A DNA stretch of 64,000 bases, taken from the NCBI RefSeq assembly GCF_045679555.1, contig NC_092093.1, forward strand, positions 60,049,566 through 60,113,565, in the 5' to 3' direction. Source of the DNA: Salvelinus alpinus. Taxonomy: Eukaryota > Chordata > Actinopteri > Salmoniformes > Salmonidae. Shown here in pieces: positions 60-64,000 of this stretch (the stretch's first letter is position 1; each line of letters begins with the position of its first letter). The position numbers and the translations under genes were made by a program. The notes beneath the pieces are model-generated. The model saw only the letters and a list, made by a program, of their open reading frames with translations, did no database searches and was not told the DNA's origin.

Positions 60-25251
<25,192 letters not shown>

Positions 25252-41404: not shown

Positions 41405-44400
41405 CTGACAGAAGATTAATGACCAGAAAGAAAGAAAAGTGTTTTGTTTTCTTCCATCCCTCTAACCTCTTATTTAAAATATTGTTCTACTTCCATCTGT
41501 GACATTACATTAGGACTAATTAAAGCAGGATAGAGAAAGTCCTGACATATTACTGACATTTAATGTACAGTTGAAGTCGAAAGTTTACATACACCTTATC
41601 CAAATACATTTAAACTCAGTTTTTCCACAATTCCTGACATTTAATCCGAGTAAAAATTCCCTGTCTTAGGTCAGTTAGGATCACCACTTTATTTTAAGAA
41701 TGTGAAATGTCAGAACAATAGTAGAGAGAATTATTTATTTCAGCTTTATTTCTTTCATCACATTCCCAGTGGAAGTTTACATACACTCAATTAGTACTTG
41801 GTAGCTTGGCCTTTAAATAGTTTAACTTGGGTCAAACGTTTCGGGTAGCCTTCCACAATAAGTTGGGTTAATTTTGGCACATTCCTCCGGACAGAGCTGG
41901 TGTAACTGAGTCAAGTTTGTAGGCCTCCTTGCTCGCACAAGTTTTTTCAGTTCTGCCCACAAATTTTCCATAGGATTGAGGTCAGGGCTTTGTGATGGCC
42001 ACTCCAATACCTTGACTTTGTTTCCCTTAAGCCATTTTGCCACAACTTTGGAAGTATGCTTGGGGTCATTGTCCATTTGGAAGACCCATTTGCGACCAAG
42101 CTTTAACTTCCTGACTGATGCCTTGAGATGTTGCTTCAATATATCCTCATAATTTTCCTCTCTCATGATGCCATCTATTTTGTGAAGTGCACCTGTCCCT
42201 CCTGCAGAAAAGCACCCCCACAACATGATGCTGCCACGCCCGTGCTTCACAGTTGGGATGGGGTTCTTCAGCTCACAAGCCTCCCCCTTTTTCCTCCAAA
42301 CATAACGATGGTCATTATGGCCAAACAGTTCTATTTTTGTTTCATCAGACCAGTGGACATTTCTCCAAAAAGTATGATCGTTGTCCCCATGTGCAGTTGC
42401 AAACTGTAGTCTGGCTTTTTTATGGCAGTTTTGGAGCAGTGGCTTCTTCCTTGCTGAGCGGCCTTTCAGGTTATGTCGATATAGGGCTTGTTTTACTGTG
42501 GATATAGATACTTTTGTACCCGTTTCCTCCAGCATCTTCACAAGGTACTTGCTGTTGTTCTAGGATTGATTTGCACTTTTCGCACCAAAGTACGTTAATC
42601 TCTAGGAGACAGAACTTTTGACGGCTGCGTGGTCCCATGGTGTTTATACTTGCATACTATTGTTTGTACAGATGAACGTGGTACATTCAGGCGTTTAGAA
42701 ATTGCTCTCAAGGATGAACCAGACTTGTGGAGGTCTACAATTCTTTTCTGAGGTCTTGGTTTGATTTTCCCATGATGTCAAGCAAAGAGACACTGAGTTT
42801 GAAGGTAGGCCTTGAAATACATCCACAGGTACACTTCCAATTGACTCAAATGATGTCAATTAGCTTATTAGAAGCTTCTAAAGCCATGACGTCATTTTCT
42901 GGATTTTTCCAAGCTGTTCAAAGGCACAGTGAGCTTAGTGTATGTAAACTCCTGACCCACTGGAATTGTGATACTGTGAATTTTAAGTGAAATAATCTGT
43001 CTGTAAACAAATGTTGGAAACATTACTTGTGTCATGCACAAAGTAGATGTCCTAACCGACTTGCCAAAACTATAGTTTGTTAACAAGAAATTTGTGGAGT
43101 GGTTGAAAAGCGAGTTTTAATGACTCCAACCTAAGTGCATGTAAACTTCCCACTTCAACTGTATGTATTCGCATGCATACCTTTATTTAACTAGGCAAGT
43201 CAGTTAAGAACACATTTTTATTTACAATGATGGCCTACCCCGGCCAAACCCTAACCCGGACGACGCTGGGCCAATTGTGTGCTGCCCTATGGTACTCCCA
43301 ATCACGGCCGGTTGTGATACAGCCTGGAATCGAACCAGGGTCTGTAGTGATGCCTTAGACCGCTGTGCCGCTCGGGAGCAGCTTCATTGTCAAAGGATTC
43401 TATAATGAACTTTTACCAATCGAAGGTCTTCGATGCGTGTGTTGGCGTTTGTTCTCATTTCCTTTCTTGCGTACGCATTGTTGGGACATGGATACATGCT
43501 GGCATGAAACCTGAAGTAGAACATAATATTAATATTTTTTGCTAATTTACTTATTTTCAAGGCTTTTGACATACTCAAGGGATCTTTTCACTCACCCATC
43601 ACAAAGCTTTCTGATCTTTCCTCTGATCTGGTCTCCTTGGACAAATACTACGAACACATCCTTCTTCACTGGATCCTCCTGTGAGCATAAAACAATGTTT
43701 GTTTACTTAACACGCATCTGCAATTATAAGCTAATGAACAACCTTTTTGTTTAATGGTTGTTTGCCTTTAAATAGAGGAGATCCTTATGTTTGAACATGT
43801 GCTTTATAGTGAACCATTTCCTTACAGCCATGTTCTCCTCCTCATGGGGCTTGATTTCAGCATGGCGGAGGACAAAGTTTCCATGAAACAGTCGCCACAG
43901 GATCTTTTCGAAGGCAGGGAAACGTTCATGCTTGATTACTCCTGCAACAAACCTGCCATGGGGATAGAAAAGGAAGGCATCAAATACTTTACTTGGTTAT
44001 CTGATGTCTCTACAACCTGATAGCAACCTGAAAAAAAAGTAGGGTGGTGGCCCCTACTTTAAACCAATTCCAGTGTTGTTTTGTGGTTAGCCTAACTAGT
44101 AACATTAGGCTAATAATTCACCCAAGTTTCAGGGGTCCGTTGGTGCTGGTGTAACTGGTGCGTCGGCTTGTCACCCTGGAAGAGTACACCGAGTCTTCAG
44201 AAGGAAGCTCAGAGATGGAAAGCTGGGACTCAGCCTATAGGCACAACATGAGAAGAAACAGGACTGTTTATGCTATCATTCTTTATAACATTCTTCTTTC
44301 CATCCCAGTATTTGTTAGGAGGACATAAGTCAAATGCAGTCAGTCATTTACCTCCTCAAAAAAGTCATCAGTCATCTGCAGGAGATGGTTGATCTCCATT

Positions 44401-47400
44401 AGTTGAGTGAAGTTCTGCCTGAGGGTGTCTCGGTTTGAGTTGATCTCCTTCAGCTCCTGCTCCAGTTTATCAAAGCTAGACTGTAACATACATGGAGAAA
44501 AAGGGGATCCCAACATGAGTTTATTGTATTAAACGGTAGTCATTGGACTAACTTGGTATAAACCAGTTACATTAACATAACTAGCCTACTGGGTTTGCTG
44601 CACTCATTATGTCTAGGGGTCTTAGGCCTAGCTACATGGTCTGTAACTTGATTAGATATGTTTAATAAATATGAGACATAAGCATATGCGACCAGGTGGT
44701 CAGAGCCTGTGCCCAGAAGACAGTCACCTTACCTGAGGTCCAGGGCCAGCTCAGCCATGACTCCCATTGTCAGCCAGTCCAAGCAGATTAGTATCCATTC
44801 AAAGTGGTGACCCAAAGTAAATATATACAAAAAAAAAACTACAAAGAGGCATGCCTAAACTAAAGAGGTGAACCAACACAAAACAACTCCAAACAAGCCG
44901 AGAGGCCTCTCGTCACGCATTGCCAATCAAACCTGATTGGCACCACCTGTAGTGCTTATCAAGGCTTCCTGGTAGAGCACAGACCGTGACCTGGTTGCTG
45001 CTGCCACCTGGGGATGAAGTGTGGAAGTGCATCCTGGTAGTGTGTTTGTCTATGTCCTAACACTAACCTTCCTCCCATATCATAACACGAATTAAGCTAG
45101 ACTTTAACATACATGGAGAAAGGGGGATTGCAAAATGAGTTCATTGTATTAAATGGTTGTCATTGGCCTAACTTGGTATAAACAAGTTACATCAAACTAA
45201 TGATGACACAGCTGGGAAAGAATCCGACCAACTATGAGAGCAAGCATCTTACCTCTAAATCCAGAACATCTCGTGGAAAAGGTATTGTCTCACTGGTAAA
45301 GTCTGCTGGGATGGGGATGTTTGATTTGACAACCTCATTTTCCAAGAACCCTAGTAGAAATGAGCCCAATGTTTAGAGAGGGGATTTTCTAGGTATTTAT
45401 TTAGAAGGGGCATTTGTCCAGACTCCTATTTTAAATCTTCCTTTAAAAACCACATACTTACGAAGAATTCTCTCCATCTCCTCACATTTCTTCACCTCCT
45501 TCACAAATCTGCGCTGAAAGGCGACTGTTCCAGGATTTAGCTAAAACATATGAAAATATATACTTAAATTGGTTGACATGTGTTAGGTGTTAGTAGCCTC
45601 GGTTGCAGTTCACATAATGACTTCAGTGTAAACTATTTTCTCATATTCTGTGTGAAGTGTTTACCTTCAATAGAAAACAAAAACTCACACTGAACTAAGT
45701 ACTGTAACCAAACTGAATTGCTCTGGGTTGAAGTTCTCATCTACAGATCTAAACTCAGCTTCCCCTCCCACCACATAAATTAACAATCGCGTTTTAATAC
45801 GATCAGTTATGTAATTGCATTAAAGTAAGTATGCGTAAAAGTAACCGTTTGTTTTTGCATGGTGAATGTGTAATTGTTGGTTTGTGCACAAACATAATGA
45901 AATATTTTTGGGAAGGTTCTTTACAGGCAAAATATATTAACCTTAATGTGAGAGGGGAATCAATAGACCTACACATGTAAAACACAGTATCTCCACGTTT
46001 CACATGTTATTTGTCATTAGAACGCACAAGAATTTGGATAGGTTCAACTTTTTCCTTTAATGACTCTATATTATGTCAACTTACAGTGTTAATGACTCTA
46101 TATTATTTCAACTTACAGTGTTAATGACTCTATATTATTTCAACTTACAGTGTTAATGACTCTATATTATTTCAACTTACAGTGTTAATGACTCTATATT
46201 ATATCAACTTACAGTGTTAATGACTCTATATTATTTCAACTTACAGTGTTAATGACTCTATATTATTTCAACTTACAGTGTTAATGACTCTATATTATTT
46301 CAACTTAGTGTTAATGACTCTATATTATTTCAACTTACAGTGTTAATGACTCTATATTATATCAACTTACAGTGTTAATGACTCTATATTATTTCAACTT
46401 ACAGTGTTAATGACTCTATATTATTTCAACTTACAGTGTTAATGACTCTATATTATTTCAACTTAGTGTTAATGACTCTATATTATTTCAACTTACAGTG
46501 TTAATGACTCTATATTATTTCAACTTACAGTGTTAATGACTCTATATTATGTCAACTTACAGTGTTAATGACTCTATATTATGTCAACTTATAGTGTTAA
46601 TGACTCTATATTATTTCAACTTACAGTGTTAATGACTCTATATTATTTCAACTTACAGTGTTAATGACTCTATATTATGTCAACTTACAGTGTTAATGAC
46701 TCTATATTATTTCAACTTACAGTGTTAATGACTCTATATTATTTCAACTTACAGTGTTAATGACTCTATATTATTTCAACTTACAGTGTTAATGACTCTA
46801 TATTATGTCAACTTACAGTGTTAATGACTCTATATTATTTCAACTTACAGTGTTAATGACTCTATATTATTTCAACTTACAGTGTTAATGACTCTATATT
46901 ATTTCAACTTACAGTGTTAATGACTCTATATTATATCAACTTACAGTGTTAATGACTCTATATTATTTCAACTTACAGTGTTAATGACTCTATATTATTT
47001 CAACTTACAGTGTTAATGACTCTATATTATTTCAACTTAGTTTTAATGACTCTATATTATGTCAACTTATAGTGTTAATGACTCTATATTATTTCAACTT
47101 ACAGTGTTAATGACTCTATATTATTTCAACTTACAGTGTTAATGACTCTATATTATGTCAACTTACAGTGTTAATGACTCTATATTATTTCAACTTACAG
47201 TGTTAATGACTCTATATTATTTCAACTTACAGTGTTAATGACTCTATATTATTTCAACTTACAGTGTTAATGACTCTATATTATGTCAACTTACAGTGTT
47301 AATGACTCTATATTATTTCAACTTACAGTGTTAATGACTCTATATTATTTCAACTTACAGTGTTAATGACTCTATATTATGTTAACTTACAGTGTTAATG

Positions 47401-50400
47401 ACTCTATATTATGTCAACTTACAGTGTTAATGACTCTATATTATTTCAACTTACAGTGTTAATGACTCTATATTATTTCAACTTACAGTGTTAATGACTC
47501 TATATTATTTCAACTTACAGTGTTAATGACTCTATATTATTTCAACTTACAGTGTTAATGATTCTATATTATTTCAACTTACAGTGTTAATGACTCTATA
47601 TTATTTCAACTTACAGTGTTAATGACTCTATATTATGTCAACTTACAGTGTTAATGACTCTATATTATTTCAACTTACAGTGTTAATGACTCTATATTAT
47701 TTCAACTTACAGTGTTAATGACTCTATATTATTTCAACTTACAGTGTTAATGACTCTATATTATATCAACTTACAGTGTTTATGACTCTATATTATTTCA
47801 ACTTACAGTGTTAATGACTCTATATTATTTCAACTTACAGTGTTAATGACTCTATATTATTTCAACTTAGTGTTAATGACTCTATATTATTTCAACTTAC
47901 AGTGTTAATGACTCTATATTATATCAACTTACAGTGTTAATGACTCTATATTATTTCAACTTACAGTGTTAATGACTCTATATTATTTCAACTTACAGTG
48001 TTAATGACTCTATATTATTTCAACTTAGTGTTAATGACTCTATATTATTTCAACTTACAGTGTTAATGACTCTATATTATTTCAACTTACAGTGTTAATG
48101 ACTCTATATTATGTCAACTTACAGTGTTAATGACTCTATATTATTTCAACTTACCGTGTTAATGACTCTATATTATTTCAACTTACAGTGTTAATGACTC
48201 TATATTATTTCAACTTACAGTGTTAATGACTCTATATTATTTCAACTTACAGTGTTAATGACTCTATATGATTTCAACTTACAGTGTTAATGACTCTATA
48301 TTATATCAACTTACAGTGTTAATGACTCTATATTATGTCAACTTACAGTGTTAATGACTATATTATTTCAACTTACAGTGTTAATGACTCTATATTATTT
48401 CAACTAACAGGTGTTAATGACTCTATATTATTTCAACTTACAGTGTTAATGACTCTATATTATTTCAACTTACAGTGTTAATGACTCTATATTATTTCAA
48501 CTTACAGTGTTAATGACTCTATATTATTTCAACTTAGTGTTAATGACTCTATATTATTTCAACTTACAGTGTTAATGACTCTATATTATTTCAACTTACA
48601 GTGTTAATGACTCTATATTATGTCAACTTACAGTGTTAATGACTCTATATTATTTCAACTTACCGTGTTAATGACTCTATATTATTTCAACTTACAGTGT
48701 TAATGACTCTATATTATTTCAACTTACAGTGTTAATGACTCTATATTATTTCAACTTACAGTGTTAATGACTCTATATGATTTCAACTTACAGTGTTAAT
48801 GACTCTATATTATATCAACTTACAGTGTTAATGACTCTATATTATGTCAACTTACAGTGTTAATGACTATATTATTTCAACTTACAGTGTTAATGACTCT
48901 ATATTATTTCAACTAACAGGTGTTAATGACTCTATATTATTTCAACTTACAGTGTTAATGAAACTATATTATTTCAACTTACAGTGTTAATGACTCTATA
49001 TTATTTCAACTTACAGTGTTAATGACTCTATATTATTTCAACTTACAGTGTTAATGACTCTATATTATTTCAACTTACAGTGTTAATGATTCTATATTAT
49101 TTAAACTTACAGTGTTAATGACTCTATATTATTTCAACTTACAGTGTTAATGACTCTATATTATGTCAACTTACAGTGTTAATGACTCTATATTATTTCA
49201 ACTTACAGTGTTAATGACTCTATATTATATCAACTTACAGTGTTTATTACTATATTATTTCAACTTACAGTGTTAATGACTCTATATTATTTCAACTTAC
49301 AGTGTTAATGACTCTATATTATTTCAACTTAGTGTTAATGACTCTATATTATTTCAACTTACAGTGTTAATGACTCTATATTATATCAACTTACAGTGTT
49401 AATGACTCTATATTATTTCAACTTACAGTGTTAATGACTCTATATTATTTCAACTTACAGTGTTAATGACTCTATATTATTTCAACTTAGTGTTAATGAC
49501 TCTATATTATTTCAACTTACAGTGTTAATGACTCTATATTATTTCAACTTACAGTGTTAATGACTCTATATTATGTCAACTTACAGTGTTAATGACTCTA
49601 TATTATTTCAACTTACCGTGTTAATGACTCTATATTATTTCAACTTACAGTGTTAATGACTCTATATTATTTCAACTTACAGTGTTAATGACTCTATATT
49701 ATTTCAACTTACAGTGTTAATGACTCTATATGATTTCAACTTACAGTGTTAATGACTCTATATTATATCAACTTACAGTGTTAATGACTCTATATTATGT
49801 CAACTTACAGTGTTAATGACTATATTATTTCAACTTACAGTGTTAATGACTCTATATTATTTCAACTAACAGGTGTTAATGACTCTATATTATTTCAACT
49901 TACAGTGTTAATGACTCTATATTATTTCAACTTACAGTGTTAATGACTCTATATTATTTCAACTTACAGTGTTAATGACTCTATATTATTTCAACTTACA
50001 GTGTTAATGACTCTATATTATATCAACTTACAGTGTTAATGACTCTATATTATGTCAACTTACAGTGTTAATGACTATATTATTTCAACTTACAGTGTTA
50101 ATGACTCTATATTATTTCAACTAACAGGTGTTAATGACTCTATATTATTTCAACTTACAGTGTTAATGACTCTATATTATTTCAACTTACAGTGTTAATG
50201 ACTCTATATTATTTCAACTTACAGTGTTAATGACTCTATATTATTTCAACTTAGTGTTAATGACTCTATATTATTTCAACTTACAGTGTTAATGACTCTA
50301 TATTATTTCAACTTAGTGTTAATGACTCTATATTATTTCAACTTACAGTGTTAATGACTCTATATTATTTCAACTTAGTGTTAATGACTCTATATTATTT

Positions 50401-52025
50401 CAACTTACAGTGTTAATGACTCTATATTATTTCAACTTACCGTGTTAATGACTCTATATTATGTCAACTTACAGTGTTAATGACTCTATATTATTTCAAC
50501 TTACCGTGTTAATGACTCTATATTATTTCAACTTACAGTGTTAATGACTCTATATTATTTCAACTTACAGTGTTAATGACTCTATATTATTTCAACTTAC
50601 AGTGTTAATGACTCTATATGATTTCAACTTACAGTGTTAATGACTCTATATTATATCAACTTACAGTGTTAATGACTCTATATTATGTCAACTTACAGTG
50701 TTAATGACTATATTATTTCAACTTACAGTGTTAATGACTCTATATTATTTCAACTAACAGGTGTTAATGACTCTATATTATTTCAACTTACAGTGTTAAT
50801 GACTCTATATTATTTCAACTTACAGTGTTAATGACTCTATATTATTTCAACTTACAGTGTTAATGACTCTATATTATTTCAACTTAGTGTTAATGACTCT
50901 ATATTATTTCAACTTACAGTGTTAATGACTCTATATTATTTCAACTTACAGTGTTAATGACTCTATATTATGTCAACTTACAGTGTTAATGACTCTATAT
51001 TATTTCAACTTACCGTGTTAATGACTCTATATTATTTAAACTTACAGTGTTAATGACTCTATATTATTTCAACTTACAGTGTTAATGACTCTATATTATT
51101 TCAACTTACAGTGTTAATGACTCTATATGATTTCAACTTACAGTGTTAATGACTCTATATTATATCAACTTACAGTGTTAATGACTCTATATTATGTCAA
51201 CTTACAGTGTTAATGACTATATTACTTCAACTTACAGTGTTAATGACTCTATATTATTTCAACTAACAGGTGTTAATGACTCTATATTATTTCAACTTAC
51301 AGTGTTAATGACTCTATATTATTTCAACTTACAGTGTTAATGACTCTATATTATTTCAACTTACAGTGTTAATGACTCTATATTATTTCAACTTAGTGTT
51401 AATGACTCTATATTATTTCAACTTACAGTGTTAATGACTCTATATTATTTCAACTTACAGTGTTAATGACTCTATATTATATCAACTTACAGTGTTAATG
51501 ACTCTATATTATTTCAACTTACCGTGTTAATGACTCTATATTATTTCAACTTACAGTGTTAATGACTCTATATTATGTCAACTTACAGCAACGTGTCAAT
51601 ATTAAGCCAGTGTACATGGTGGAATCAATATGTATTAGACTGGCATGCAGTTAAATGGATTTGACCTTCATACCATTAGCCATACTGTGCTCGGTTTAAT
51701 ATGGGCTATTTCAACTACAAAAGGTCTGTGTTTATTTTGTTAACTTCTACTAATACCCAATACTTGAAAAATATTGAAAAAGTCATACTATAAAATGGTT
51801 AGACGAGTAACCTCAAATGTAAAGAACTTTCCGTTAACATAGTTTAGTTACTATAGTATATACCACATTTCCATAAGTTTCCCTGGAAATGTGGTTGTTT
51901 TTACTCACATCTTTAAATTGCACCAGTCCTAGATGCCCAAGCTCATTGATGCAGTTGTGAGCTGACTCAGTTTGGAAAAACAGCTGGACAAGACACATCT
52001 CTTCACTCCGAAAAAAGGAATACAT
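35663..52025 (-). CDS. atp6v0a4: V-type proton ATPase 116-kDa subunit a, isoform a4-like (complete)
   Basis: The membrane a subunit of the V-ATPase forms the proton half-channels beside the c-ring. Twenty coding exons: 51909-52025, 45462-45540, 45253-45350, 44352-44480, 44122-44234, 43826-43952, 43596-43678, 43417-43510, 41192-41404, 40928-41078, 40079-40212, 39672-39832, 39486-39579, 39026-39144, 38416-38623, 37992-38096, 37733-37810, 36526-36643, 35974-36145, 35663-35747. They sum to 2478 bp, 825 residues plus TGA, with every phase matching; family proteins are about 830-840. Start [18 protein letters not shown] lines up with the family MxxxFRSEEM start. Hallmarks: [99 protein letters not shown] and LQFIPE favour a4 over a1, a2 and TCIRG1. 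Mammalian a4 serves acid-secreting kidney and inner-ear cells; a role in fish ionocytes is an inference. Glutamate replaces the usual Gln after LSLAHA. Confidence 0.9.
36204..36352 (+). mobile_element. tRNA-derived SINE, shortened
   Basis: GATGGCAGGTAGCCTAGCAG, then GGGCCAGTAACCGAAAGGTC and GGTTTGAATCCC make a tRNA-like head. The tail GCATCTGCTGAATGACTTAA is the common teleost SINE end. It lies in the atp6v0a4 intron between 35974-36145 and 36526-36643. Confidence 0.8.
36861..36950. repeat. (TG)n microsatellite followed by GA-rich tail
   Basis: About 32 TG dinucleotides (36861-36925), then GAGAGAGAGTGAGACAGTGAG. It lies in the atp6v0a4 intron between 36526 and 37810, next to a LINE relic. 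Confidence 0.97.
36960..37560 (-). mobile_element. LINE remnant (reverse transcriptase C terminus)
   Basis: Two overlapping minus-strand frames encode [37 protein letters not shown] and then [41 protein letters not shown], in the order of a non-LTR reverse transcriptase tail, joined by a frameshift near 37290. It lies in the atp6v0a4 intron between 36643 and 37733. Confidence 0.82.
40371..40600 (+). mobile_element. tRNA-derived SINE
   Basis: Head GATCCTGAGTGGCGCAGCGG TCTAAGGCACTGC, B-box region GGGTTCAATCCC, body CGGCCGTGATCGGGAGTCCC, tail TTCTTAACTGACTTGCC plus an A run. It lies in the atp6v0a4 intron between 40079-40212 and 40928-41078. Confidence 0.87.
40615..40860 (+). mobile_element. 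Short non-autonomous element, copy B
   Basis: It starts ACACGTAGGATCTTAAATTT, continues GCTACAGCAGGAAAATAATC and CTGCAGCAACAGGAAATG, and ends near CTCCTGCAACAGGGTGATC. It lies in an atp6v0a4 intron. Confidence 0.7.
41568..43161 (-). mobile_element. Sleeping Beauty-type Tc1 transposon, 1594 bp
   Basis: Ends CAGTTGAAGTCGAAAGTTTA and TAAACTTCCCACTTCAACTG are inverted repeats flanked by TA target duplications at 41566-41567 and 43162-43163. An inner GTTTACATACAC motif recurs as a second direct repeat, as in Sleeping Beauty elements. It lies in the atp6v0a4 intron between the exons at 41192-41404 and 43417-43510, with its transposase on the same strand as the gene. Confidence 0.95.
41822..42780 (-). 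pseudogene. Sleeping Beauty-type transposase, frameshifted at both ends
   Basis: An open run of 239 codons (42541-41822) covers the catalytic core: [36 protein letters not shown] and [18 protein letters not shown], so the DD34E triad is readable. The original start (ATGGGAAAATCAAACCAAGA near 42775) runs into a stop after about a dozen codons, so the paired DNA-binding domain is lost. The C terminus departs from the family at [11 protein letters not shown] because of a small deletion. Full-length relatives have about 340 residues. It is inactive as it stands. Confidence 0.93.
43172..43388 (-). mobile_element. tRNA-derived SINE
   Basis: Reverse orientation: TTTAACTAGGCAAGTCAGTT at the left, CAATCACGGCCGGTTGTGAT in the middle, and ACCGCTGTGCCGCTCGGGAG at the right. 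It sits 11 bp from the right end of the Sleeping Beauty-type element. Confidence 0.87.
43417..45540 (-). CDS. atp6v0a4: atp6v0a4 coding exons 2-8 (cytosolic N-terminal arm)
   Basis: Seven small exons encode the cytosolic N-terminal half that bridges to the V1 sector. In order: [57 protein letters not shown], heptad-like and probably coiled coil; [78 protein letters not shown]. The family motifs F.AGVI..ER...FE.ILWR and F..QG.Q...KI.K.C.GF are easy to see. The intron between exons 3 and 4 holds a duplicated segment (44580-45195). Confidence 0.88.
44471..45195. repeat. Direct duplication flanking about 500 bp in an atp6v0a4 intron
   Basis: About 100 bp starting AGCTAGACTGTAACATACAT at 44475 recurs, diverged, at 45097 (AGCTAGACTTTAACATACAT); both continue TTAATACAATGAACTC-like and GGTATAAAC sequence. 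The first copy includes the exon 4 acceptor and its first coding bases. The sequence between (44580-45095) has no coding signal that I recognise. Confidence 0.75.
46056..51588. repeat. 32-bp AT-rich satellite, about 173 units, with higher-order structure
   Basis: Unit GTTAATGACTCTATATTATT followed by TCAACTTACAGT. Variants: ATATCAAC, ATGTCAAC, a 29-bp form lacking ACA (CAACTTAGTG), TTACCGTG, TATATGATTT and CAACTAACAGG. The last recurs at 48402, 48911, 49864, 50119, 50752 and 51261, two of the intervals being exactly 509 bp. The array fills most of the intron after the first atp6v0a4 coding exon. On the gene's sense strand most units contain GTAAGT. Confidence 0.97.
51909..52025 (-). CDS. atp6v0a4: atp6v0a4 coding exon 1 (start codon)
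   Basis: ATG at 52025-52023, 39 codons ending LVQFKD before donor GTGAGT at 51908. The next codons, [13 protein letters not shown], come from the exon at 45462-45540, across a 6.4-kb intron mostly made of a 32-bp satellite. No in-frame ATG further upstream fits the family start. A non-coding first exon may lie between here and tmeff1. Confidence 0.88.
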
Positions 52026-54231: not shown

Positions 54232-54388
54232 ATGTCCAGAGGATATCCCCTCTCATCTCACGGACCCTCCGCAGGCCGTTTTCTCTCCTTGGTCCTCTGC
54301 CTTTTGGCCGTCTCTACACTGCATGGAGCACAAGCTTCATACTCTCAGAGCAGCGAATGTGTCTCAGGAAAAGGCAAGGGCTGCCTAG
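54232..54388 (+). CDS. tmeff1: tmeff1 exon 1: start codon and signal peptide
   Basis: 52 codons plus one base, followed by donor GTGAGT at 54389. A hydrophobic core at residues 17-30 is followed by HGAQASYSQ, a plausible signal-peptidase site. The split codon G|AT gives D of [13 protein letters not shown] in exon 2. Confidence 0.85.
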
Positions 54389-60300: not shown

Positions 60301-62221
60301 TTTGCTTCTTCCTCTGATAAATACTGCCTAGTATGAGAGATGTTCAAGTGTATTTCTGGCTAAAGGGGAAGCTTGTTATTGGCTTTGGAGCTTATACAAG
60401 TGATGAAAGTCATTACTGGAAGGAGTGTCTGTGAACTCTTGAGTTGCAAGGAGTTAATTAACTTTGGTTCATACTGGATTTTAGCCTGGAATCCTAACTG
60501 ATTTACTCCGTTTCATGGTGAAACAAAGCATATTGATTTGGATTCCAGGCTAACTGTATTTAAGGTAAGATACAAATGAGGGAAAATACTGTGTTTGTGT
60601 ACAAATTTGAGTGGGAAGTTGAGGGTGTGTTATGGAACATGAATTATACAAGCATAGCTATACAGGGTTTCACACTATTTCATATACTCTTAGTAAAAAT
60701 AGAGCTTAGGCTCAATTATTCATATGTTATTCTCAAAGATAGAAAAGCTATATCACATGGATACTAGTAGCCTACACTAGATACATTGTCAAAAATATTT
60801 AGATGGTTTTATTGTAACCTGGAAAATATATCTCTACTTAATCTCTTTGTAAAACAATGGTATTTCATTGCCTTGCTGATAAGAACACCTTTCTGTTTTA
60901 CAGATGCATCTGAGAAGAAGAGTGACCTGAGAGTGTGTGATGCTGCAACATGTCGTTACGGGGGAACCTGTCGAGAGAACGGGGCTGACCTGAAATGTGT
61001 CTGCCAGTTCCATGTAAGTAACACAGTGGGAAAAATGTTATCATGTTCTCTGTTGTGAAATAAGACTGCCATCACTATGAGCAAGAAAGCAAGCAGGAAT
61101 GGTTTATCCAAATGTGGCACAACCCTTTGCCATCCGTTAGCATGGCATTTGCTTATAAATTATTTCTGAAGTCTATAGGCATTAATAATGTTATATGCGC
61201 TTTCAGGTTCCTGTCCTCAGAAATGGTAAGGTCTAGGCTACGATGGTTCAGTAACTCTAAAATCCTACCATTACCCGTTGTGTTCCAGTGCTCTAAGAAG
61301 TACATCTCTGTTTGTGGGTCCAACGGAGACACCTTCCAGAATGAGTGCTTCATGAGGAGAGCAGCGTGCAAGCAGCAGAAGTCCATATCACAGGTCTCTG
61401 AAGGGGCCTGCTCTACAGGTGAGTGTCAGGATGCAGCAGAAGTCCATATCACAGGTCTCTGAAGGGGCCTGCTCTACAGGTGAGTGTCAGGATGCAGCAG
61501 AAGTCCATATCACAGGTCTCTGAAGGGGCCTGCTCTACAGGTGAGTGTCAGGATGCAGCAGAAGTCCATATCACAGGTCTCTGAAGGGGCCTGCTCTACA
61601 GGTGAGTGTCAGGATGCAGCAGAAGTCCATATCACAGGTCTCTGAAGGGGCCTGCTCTACAGGTGAGTGTCAGGATGCAGCAGAAGTCCATATCACAGGT
61701 CTCTGAAGGGGCCTGCTCTACAGGTGAGTGTCAGGATGCAGCAGAAGTCCATATCACAGGTCTCTGAAGGGGCCTGCTCTACAGGTGAGTGTCAGGATGC
61801 AGCAGACAGATCACTTTTTCCTCTCTCTAAACTGTCCCTAGTCATTGCCTTATTACTCATTTAGATTAAGCTGAAACTAACTCATTTTCTATGCTCTAAC
61901 TCACAGATGGCAGTTCCGGATCGGGTGACGGAGGTATAGTGCTGTAACTTGGTCTTACTTCACTTTAATAAGTTGGACTTGCCAACCCATGTTACAATGT
62001 TACAGAAAGAGCTTGCTAAAAATAGCTTGCTAAAAGAAAAGCTTTGCAAATCCAAACACTAATGGAACAATATTAACTTTGTTGACAGCTAACAGCACAT
62101 TTTTGTTATACTCCTTTCCTACAGATGATGAAGGATCAGGCACAGGCAGAGGGAAAAAGCCTACAAAATGTGGCACCTGCAAGTTTGGAGCAGAATGCGA
62201 TGTGGACTCTGAGGATATCTT
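54232..62221 (+). CDS. tmeff1: Tomoregulin-1-like transmembrane protein with EGF-like and follistatin-like domains, 5' part
   Basis: Tomoregulins are single-pass membrane proteins with two follistatin/Kazal modules and one EGF module that modulate TGF-beta family and ErbB signalling. Coding exons: 54232-54388, 60904-61013, 61289-61418, 61907-61933, 62125-62221, all GT-AG and phase-consistent. Exon 1 encodes [11 protein letters not shown], a hydrophobic signal core ([14 protein letters not shown]) and SGKGKGCL. Exon 2: [20 protein letters not shown] through CVCQFH. Exon 3: Kazal core [28 protein letters not shown]. Exon 4: acidic Gly-Ser linker. Exon 5: [18 protein letters not shown], start of the second follistatin module. 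The remainder is off the right edge. SDLRVCD, the GKGK exon 1 end and KCG.CK fit TMEFF1 better than TMEFF2. ATG at 54232 is preferred because the upstream in-frame codons begin only with GTG and would precede the signal peptide. Confidence 0.85.
54935..55450 (-). mobile_element. LINE 3' end fragments, two types side by side
   Basis: 54935-55085 (TCACATTTATTTATAAAGCT, AAACCCAGCCTAAAACCCCA) is the same repeat as at 34350-34480. 55095-55450 (CAAATGTTATTGGTCACATA, GGCAAGATGCAATAGATGG) is the salmonid LINE 3' region. No coding capacity. tmeff1 intron 1. Confidence 0.65.
56262..56412 (+). mobile_element. tRNA-derived SINE
   Basis: Head TGTAGCCGAGTTGGTAGAGC with B-box-like GGTTGTCCGTTTGATTCCCC; tail AAGTCGCTCTGGATAAGAGC ATCTGCTAAATGAC. 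tmeff1 intron 1. Confidence 0.83.
56528..56605 (-). mobile_element. LINE 3' end fragment
   Basis: TGTTATCGGTCACATACACG and GTGGTGAAATGCTTGTAAAT match the start of the element at 55095-55450. Confidence 0.55.
56901..58903. mobile_element. hAT-type element with 8-bp target duplication, inserted in a SINE
   Basis: Ends TAGAGGTCGACCGATTAATC and ATAATCGGTCGACCTCTA are inverted. GTAGTGAG occurs on both sides (56893-56900 and 58904-58911), the 8-bp duplication typical of hAT. The 2003-bp interior has no transposase frame, contains a SINE (56945-57145), and includes an internal duplication of about 200 bp (about 57355-57550 and 57645-57860, both with ACCTAACCATAAACATCAAT). tmeff1 intron 1. Confidence 0.9.
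56945..57145 (-). mobile_element. tRNA-derived SINE inside the hAT element
   Basis: Minus-strand salmonid SINE: the plus strand reads TTTAACTAGGCAAGTCAGTT, AAGAACACA, then GTGGGTTAACTGCCTTGTTC and a degraded tRNA-like head. It therefore inserted after, or moved with, the hAT copy. Confidence 0.82.
59001..60903. other. tmeff1 intron 1, unassigned stretch
   Basis: Apart from the CT-rich tract near 59335-59440, I see no exon or named repeat before the tmeff1 exon 2 acceptor at 60903. Confidence 0.5.
59335..59440. repeat. CT-rich simple sequence
   Basis: Mixed TCTC, CCTCC and a run of 14 C in tmeff1 intron 1. Low complexity with no coding signal. Confidence 0.85.
60904..61013 (+). CDS. tmeff1: tmeff1 exon 2 (first follistatin module)
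   Basis: 110 bp from acceptor TTTTACAG to donor GTAAGT. It encodes the six-cysteine follistatin N-lobe [16 protein letters not shown] and LKCVCQFH. The phase joins cleanly to TGC of exon 3. Confidence 0.9.
61289..61418 (+). CDS. tmeff1: tmeff1 exon 3 (first Kazal core)
   Basis: 130 bp from acceptor GTTCCAG to donor GTGAGT at 61419. It encodes [20 protein letters not shown] and [23 protein letters not shown]. Its last 40 bp and donor are repeated six more times directly downstream. Reading through the first donor meets TGA at 61460-61462, before the second donor, so only the first donor leaves an open frame. Confidence 0.9.
61379..61805 (+). repeat. 61-bp tandem repeat carrying the exon 3 end and splice donor of tmeff1, 7 units
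   Basis: Units start at 61379, 61440, 61501, 61562, 61623, 61684 and 61745. Each holds 40 bp of exon 3 coding sequence (AAGTCCATATCACAGGTCTC through CTCTACAG), then the donor GTGAGTGTC and GGATGCAGCAG. The units look nearly identical. The first is the functional exon end; the other six are intronic by the gene model. Confidence 0.95.
61907..62221 (+). CDS. tmeff1: tmeff1 exons 4 and 5 (linker and start of second follistatin module)
   Basis: Exon 4 (61907-61933, 27 bp) encodes the linker (D)GSSGSGDG. Exon 5 (62125-62221, 97 bp) encodes [20 protein letters not shown] and [12 protein letters not shown]. Both sit between AG and GT (donors GTATAG and GTGAGT). The acidic Gly-Ser linker between the two follistatin modules matches tomoregulins. 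Confidence 0.82.
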
Positions 62222-62920
62222 GTGAGTACTTTCTTCTGGAATTATACCCTTTACAGAAAGACTTCACGGTATGTTGCCTATAAAATAAATCAGGCTATGT
62301 TTTTTAGAACCTAATTCATACAGGCCCATTTTTGCCACATCCTTTCCAGGAAAAGCTTTCACCATCACAAAGAAATCCATTATGTTTTAGGCAGGTCCTA
62401 AGAAACATTATAAGACTAATAACATTTATTTTTATAAGATTAGAATGGCATATTTTGAGTTGAATTATATTACTGGCCTGTGCATCCTATAGGATACATG
62501 GCTGTGCCATGCACATGAAATCAAGTTATTTAGTTCAGTAAACAGACAAGACTACCCTGATCACAGTAAACACACATATATTTTACAGTAGGCTAAGAAT
62601 ATAATTAAATATAACAGAATAAAATACAAATAATGCTTTTCCCATACAACTTGCATCACACAACGGCAGCGTGTGGAACTGCTGTCAAATAAAGAAAGGT
62701 GATATTTTGAAACTGAACCCATGCTTTTATTATCCACGTTTTGTATTTTTCCTGACCTCACTCCGCTTTGTTAGGGAGCAGGTGTAGTGTCTTACATTGA
62801 GAGTATCTTCATCACGATACCAAAATAATATCTATCTATTGTATATTTTCAAAAGCATGTGAATTTCATGTTTATATTTCACAAACTTTGCAGGCTTTTG
62901 GAGTTGCTCAAGCAAAATAA

Positions 62921-63267
62921 TAGACCTACAGTTGATTTAGGCTACATTACAGCATGCTAAATGTTTCTGATCAGTGCTAGACCTACAGTTGATTTAGGCT
63001 ACATTACAGCATGCTAAATGTTTCTGATCAGTGCTAGACCTACAGTTGATTTAGGCTACATTACAGCATGCTAAATGTTTCTGATCAGTGCTAGACCTAC
63101 AGTTGATTTAGGCTACATTACAGCATGCTAAGTGTTTCTGATCAGTGCTAGACCTACAGTTGATTTAGGCTACATTACAGCATGCTAAATGTTTCTGATC
63201 AGTGATAGACCTACAGTTGATTTAGGCTACATTACAGCATGCTAAATGTTTCTGATCAGTGATAGAT
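62921..63267. repeat. 57-bp tandem repeat, 6 units
   Basis: Unit TAGACCTACAGTTGATTTAG, GCTACATTACAGCATGCTAA, ATGTTTCTGATCAGTGC. The units differ by single bases. It lies in tmeff1 intron 5. Confidence 0.95.
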
Positions 63268-64000
63268 GAGCTATACCACCTCCACTTATCTGCCCAGCCA
63301 GAGAATTAACCAAATATATAGACGGATGGATATTCAGTGAAGCAAAATCACATTGATTGATTTAGACAAGTCACAGGATTTTGGTCAGGAGAAGGCCTAG
63401 GCCACTAAGCGACTATGAGTGAAGAGAAAAATGATCCACTTGTTAAGTTACATAACATGCAGGCAAAATGTTCTGACCAGTGCTAATGAATGAACCAACT
63501 AGACAAGGTGATCATGAGCAGCACTCACCTCAACTTAGCTAACATTTCCACAGCCTAATTGTTGCCTAACTAATATCCAAATGGAGAATATTATGACATT
63601 GATTGATCTCCACACTTGTCTCAAAGCAGCACAAAACGCTGCTGAAATAGTTGCTATTGCTTCAAATGTATTATAACAATTAGATGACTTTTGGAGTTAC
63701 AGTAACCAATAATTTGATGCCTTCAATTGCATTAGCCTACTTTATTCCAGTATTTTCTGTCATTCAGTAATATTTATTCCCACAGTAATTATTTATGGAT
63801 CCATCCAGTTGTGGTTAAGAAAACAGTGTGTGTGGTGACATGCCTCGCAAAGTTTACAACTGCCAGGAGGATAGTAGTAACGGGCGCTGCCTAGCAACCA
63901 GAGCATAGTGCGCGCCAATGCCGCCTCAGCATTACGGCTACATTTCATACTAAGCCATAGGCAGAACTTTATCACAATCATGGCTAGGTCGGTTTGCGGA
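63268..64000. other. tmeff1 intron 5, unassigned
   Basis: No sixth exon is recognisable before the window ends, so the second follistatin module must continue to the right. Confidence 0.5.

Follow-up and report, generated by a model that had tools for sequence, protein, structure and literature searches.

A 61-bp minisatellite of seven exact units straddles the boundary between exon 3 and intron 3 of a TMEFF-family gene in the 64,000-nt stretch of Salvelinus alpinus DNA analysed here (the window), placing seven identical consensus splice donors behind one acceptor. We think it probable that this is a young minisatellite, which arose by duplication between two 8-bp repeats, expanded to seven units, and is mostly tolerated, with the first donor in use. 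It is a known kind of structure and an unusually clean example of it.

Results

At the structural level, the period-61 tandem repeat is exact over positions 61372-61806 of the forward strand: 435 bp, equal to 7 x 61 + 8 (copy number 7.13), without a single mismatch. An earlier sequence-only reading had placed seven units at 61379-61805 (7 x 61 = 427 bp), which agrees with our count, the exact periodic run being slightly longer. It was also right about the composition of the unit, which consists of the final 40 bases of coding exon 3, GTGAGT, and a further 15 bases. Its description of the copies as near-identical was too cautious: all seven are identical, and neighbouring units differ at 0 of 374 positions. 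By the definition given in PMC6868369 (head-to-tail units of 10-100 bp), the array is a minisatellite. Seven perfect head-to-tail 61-mers are not a chance match, so either a tandem duplication or an assembly artefact mimicking one is needed. The perfect identity of the units suggests a young array or a consensus error.

Tandem repeats are abundant in this region, taking up 14,817 of the 64,000 window bases once the rows of the repeat finder are merged (about 23%). With such a load, a repeat lying over some exon boundary is unsurprising by itself, and our reading is of a young minisatellite that came to straddle an exon-intron boundary by chance. We measured eight other arrays in the 64 kb, with units of 12-57 bp and unit mismatches from 1.0% to 22%; among the nine compared, the 61-bp array alone has none.

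Several other repeats in the window deserve mention. A second nearly uniform minisatellite (62921-63266; 57 bp x 6, 3/289 mismatches) lies past exon 5 of the same gene. On the 5' side of the probable exon 1, a 5.5-kb array (46057-51588) is built from about 174 copies of a 32-bp unit that contains TTTCAACTTACAGTG, an acceptor-like stretch. A 4.4-kb C-rich array with strong GC skew occupies 4723-9114 (about 193 copies of a 23-bp unit); the forward-strand frame of 1,570 codons that it keeps open from stop to stop is most likely not a gene. On the reverse strand, 41822-42559 holds a Tc1-type transposase frame (Pfam DDE_3 and HTH_Tnp_Tc3_2).

Both ends of the 61-bp array carry the same 8 bp, GCAGCAGA. 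The left copy is on the exon side (61372-61379) and the right copy on the intron side (61799-61806), both on the forward strand; in the one-unit state they would be 61 bp apart, one exonic and one intronic. Duplication between short direct repeats would leave such a pattern. Breakpoint homology of at least 8 bases occurred at 0 of 47,032 other window positions with 61-bp spacing, and of exactly 7 bases at 48, these positions being consecutive rather than independent and the repeat mask sampling four points per position. In shuffles of the one-unit arrangement (made one base too long), some 8-mer was repeated at a spacing of 40-90 nt in 78 of 500, so that a repeat of this sort is not rare by itself. 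A duplication between short direct repeats, followed by expansion, would be a simple account of how the array originated.

For the host gene, we placed exons 2-5 from reading frames and splice sites on the forward strand. Coding exon 2 (60904-61013) is an open frame between an acceptor and a donor. Coding exon 3 (61289-61418; 130 nt, phase 0 to 1) encodes the end of the first follistatin/Kazal module; its acceptor falls between 61288 and 61289, and 61418 is the final exon base before donor 1. It would be followed by a coding micro-exon 4 of 27 nt (61907-61933, phase 1 to 1) and by coding exon 5 (62125-62221), both placed by frame and sites. A probable coding exon 1 with a signal-peptide-like N terminus lies at 54232-54388 and ends at a phase 1 donor, CTAG/GTGAGT (the slash marks the splice junction); its start is the sole upstream ATG that passed a hydrophobic-stretch filter, and its phase is compatible with exon 2. 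Spliced through donor 1, the five putative exons make a single open frame, which fits a gene that is still used. Beyond exon 5, inspection by eye of the three frames of 62222-64000, the 1.8 kb up to the window end, gave no additional exon, such as would be expected for the second module, the EGF domain, and the transmembrane segment of the family. The donor of micro-exon 4, GAG/GTATAG, scores weakly, and since the exon runs from phase 1 to phase 1 it could be skipped without a frame shift.

The sequence-only reading had named the gene tmeff1. The family part of that name is reasonably safe. In Pfam, the translation of exons 2-5 in joined form hits Kazal_2 (E 2.9e-11), so the follistatin/Kazal module of the TMEFF (tomoregulin) family is present. 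The translation of exons 3-5 hits PDB entries for agrin and follistatin modules (E up to 0.01), with the TMEFF name absent among the 25 PDB sequences listed for that query at this threshold. The paralogue tmeff1 is plausible and not firm, since against fragments of the human paralogues the identity favours TMEFF1 (56% to human TMEFF1, 50% to TMEFF2) and the bit score favours TMEFF2 (134 for TMEFF1, 138 for TMEFF2). Human TMEFF1 is described in PMC11306101 as preferentially expressed by cortical neurons.

The stretch CAGGTGAGT is present seven times and gives seven identical consensus donors, CAG/GTGAGT, after one acceptor. Their first intron bases are 61419, 61480, 61541, 61602, 61663, 61724, and 61785 (61419 + 61k), exactly where the earlier reading had put them. 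The nine-base motifs occupy 61416-61424 for donor 1, which keeps the normal frame, and 61477-61485, 61538-61546, 61599-61607, 61660-61668, 61721-61729, and 61782-61790 for donors 2 to 7, each of these also forming an AG/GT junction. In a simple vertebrate matrix, the array donors score 12.5, against 9.1, 3.6, and 6.9 for the donors of exons 2, 4, and 5. All seven score equally, so donor 1 has no sequence advantage. Length cues conflict: with donor 1 the exon would have 130 nt and the intron 488 nt, with donor 7 they would have 496 nt and 122 nt, next to neighbouring introns of 275 nt (intron 2) and 191 nt (intron 4), so that exon length would favour donor 1 and intron length donor 7. The sequence by itself picks no winner.

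Eperon et al. reportedly found in 1993 that, of two equally strong donors, the intron-proximal one tends to win. In DOK7, SRSF1 bound beside the intron-distal of two donors suppresses that donor, according to PMC5585400; this suggests that exonic protein binding, repeated here in every unit, could matter for the choice. We rejected a special RNA structure that hides or exposes donors, since the region folds no better than shuffled sequence: four pieces showed nothing unusual (z 0.29 to 0.75), and each of 20 shuffles of 61289-61933 folds better than the real sequence (z +3.28). Splicing from donor 7 would leave an intron (61785-61906) exactly twice as long as the unit, probably by coincidence.

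A length of 61 is not a multiple of 3, so reading past donor 1 changes the frame, as noted previously. Every transcript that does so meets an in-frame TGA at 61460-61462 on the forward strand (codon 58 of exon 3), before donor 2, and the codon at which translation stops is unchanged across all the copy numbers we computed, from 2 to 12. Over this range the sequence itself implies, as the earlier reading claimed, that downstream donors give mRNA that is truncated or prone to decay. From the stop to the exon 3/4 junction there are 17 nt for donor 2 and up to 322 nt for donor 7, and the end of exon 5 lies at least 141 nt downstream of the TGA (141 nt for donor 2). At least one exon end is thus more than 50 nt past the stop for each of donors 2-7, and the 50-nt rule for nonsense-mediated decay applies in all cases. 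We predict that donors 2-7 lead to decay or to one fixed truncated product, which on escape from decay would consist of the first module and a 14-residue tail. Donors 4 and 7 restore the normal frame downstream of the stop.

Two ideas about the protein were rejected with these frames. The array is not exonised as an in-frame protein repeat, since the frame of exon 3 hits the TGA in unit 2 for copy numbers 2-12; nor is product length set by unit number, since the stop stays at the same codon over that range.

Discussion

The account that we favour, as the probable one, begins with a tandem duplication, by slippage or end-joining, between the two GCAGCAGA copies, of which the first lies in exon 3 and the second shortly after the start of intron 3. 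The duplicated segment would then have expanded to seven units. The first unit preserves the exon end, the donor, and the start of the intron, so normal mRNA would still be possible from donor 1 with a 488-nt intron. Transcripts from donors 2-7 would all reach one stop and be degraded by nonsense-mediated decay. As donor 1 remains intact, the array would be mostly tolerated and close to neutral, at most costing some productive mRNA.

The junctions can also be read in another way. The earlier reading was right that they are donors, and it overlooked that each AG/GT is also a potential acceptor. If each CAG/GTGAGT could be used at either end of an intron, splicing could remove runs of units (GT...AG, 61 x j nt) and so erase the expansion from the RNA. 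AG/GT is found at every unit boundary, the 61-nt unit reads GTGAGT...CTACAG, and the GT...AG distance is always a multiple of the unit, as in dual-specific sites of the UBC type. Any run of units is thus a potential GT...AG intron whose removal would be traceless, restoring the end of exon 3 and its donor, and such removal would buffer output rather than dial it. In the simple matrix, the acceptor at the unit end (5.9) ranks slightly above the inferred acceptors of exon 3 (5.2) and exon 4 (4.9); however, those of exons 2 and 5 reach 12.1 and 10.8. The matrix is weakly selective: the 19 AGs scoring above 3 in 60901-62300 comprise four exon acceptors, seven unit ends, and eight that are neither, some of which outscore the unit-end acceptor (up to 7.3). 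The unit also lacks a YTNAY branch motif and offers no more than a TNAY at 28 nt and a CTGA at 17 nt from its end, although intron 2 likewise has no YTNAY near its end, so that the motif weighs on neither side. One unit of 61 nt roughly equals, or falls short of, the shortest vertebrate introns, so steps of at least two units would be needed. In addition, dual-specific sites reportedly have weaker motifs than single-purpose ones (PMC10809524), whereas the array donors are near-perfect. We hold this use of the junctions to be unlikely; it is compatible with the tolerated minisatellite rather than exclusive of it. Recursive splicing is a separate matter: its ratchet points are described for long introns (PMC6110456), and we rejected it because AG/GT is present but intron 3 has only 122-488 nt.

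The array could also be pictured, as the earlier reading suggested, as a copy-number dial, in which the share of donors 2-7 rises with unit number and decay of those transcripts sets the amount of productive mRNA. The donors are identical and would compete, all except the first lead to the stop, and the distances past it exceed 50 nt at both extremes (141 nt to the exon 5 end for donor 2, 322 nt to the exon 3 end for donor 7). A repeat array in intron 6 of TERT has been linked to TERT splicing (PMC11830802). Nevertheless, an unregulated leak would be a fixed cost and not a control in use, and we consider the dial improbable. The same low likelihood goes to the combined picture of an expanding array in which each unit is both a competing donor and a traceless intron, with unit number tuning productive mRNA against decay and the protein unchanged. 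Finally, the assembly could be wrong, with a real unit number that differs, perhaps one or two, and an identity that comes from consensus copying. The lack of mismatches, unique to this array among the nine compared, would fit such an error, and tandem repeats are known to cause assembly errors (PMC6868369). However, 435 bp is short relative to long reads, the arrays of 4.4 and 5.5 kb in the window suggest that long-read data stand behind the assembly, and the neighbouring 57-bp array is also nearly uniform. An assembly error seems to us very doubtful.

Comparable arrangements have been described in other genomes. Tandem dual-specific splice sites were proposed in UBC and VCX3A (Duan et al. 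2024, PMC10809524). As in these genes, our tandem units carry AG/GT and the removable stretch is a multiple of the unit. However, the UBC sites delimit whole ubiquitin monomers of a polyubiquitin, whereas our unit lies across a boundary between exon and intron that already existed, has a length not divisible by 3, and brings a stop when read through, its acceptor role being putative (PMC10809524). In human segmental-duplication genes, tandem repeats at boundaries are associated with novel introns and alternative splicing (PMC2812944). Those internal repeats also lie over exon-intron boundaries; there, paralogues were compared and transcripts gave support, whereas here there is one sequence, known from DNA alone (PMC2812944).

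Intron gain by tandem duplication (the Rogers model; ATP2A1 and a potato RdRp gene) resembles our case in that a duplicated AGGT or boundary segment supplies splice signals (PMC4974935). In the reports on ATP2A1 and potato RdRp the outcome was a new intron, and the acceptor boundary was duplicated; in the present array there are seven copies, the new intron is only potential, and it is the donor boundary that was duplicated (PMC4974935). DOK7 intron 4 likewise offers more than one donor to an exon, with a truncated product from one choice, and the choice depends on SRSF1 and site strength (PMC5585400). In contrast, DOK7 has two unequal donors 11 nt apart and we have seven identical ones 61 nt apart; the productive site is the intron-proximal one in DOK7 and the most intron-distal one here (PMC5585400). 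Among the matches listed from the open-licence literature, none described this array or a consensus donor present in seven tandem copies.

The array is a natural and uniform test of donor competition, with seven identical donors at 61-nt spacing, one acceptor, one productive choice, and one fixed stop. It raises the issue of which donor prevails in vivo, the intron-distal or the intron-proximal one; were donor 7 to prevail, the allele would be nearly null. It also poses the question of traceless splicing of AG/GT repeats, a step that has been proposed in de novo intron formation. Should unit number differ within the species, natural alleles would provide a direct dose-response.
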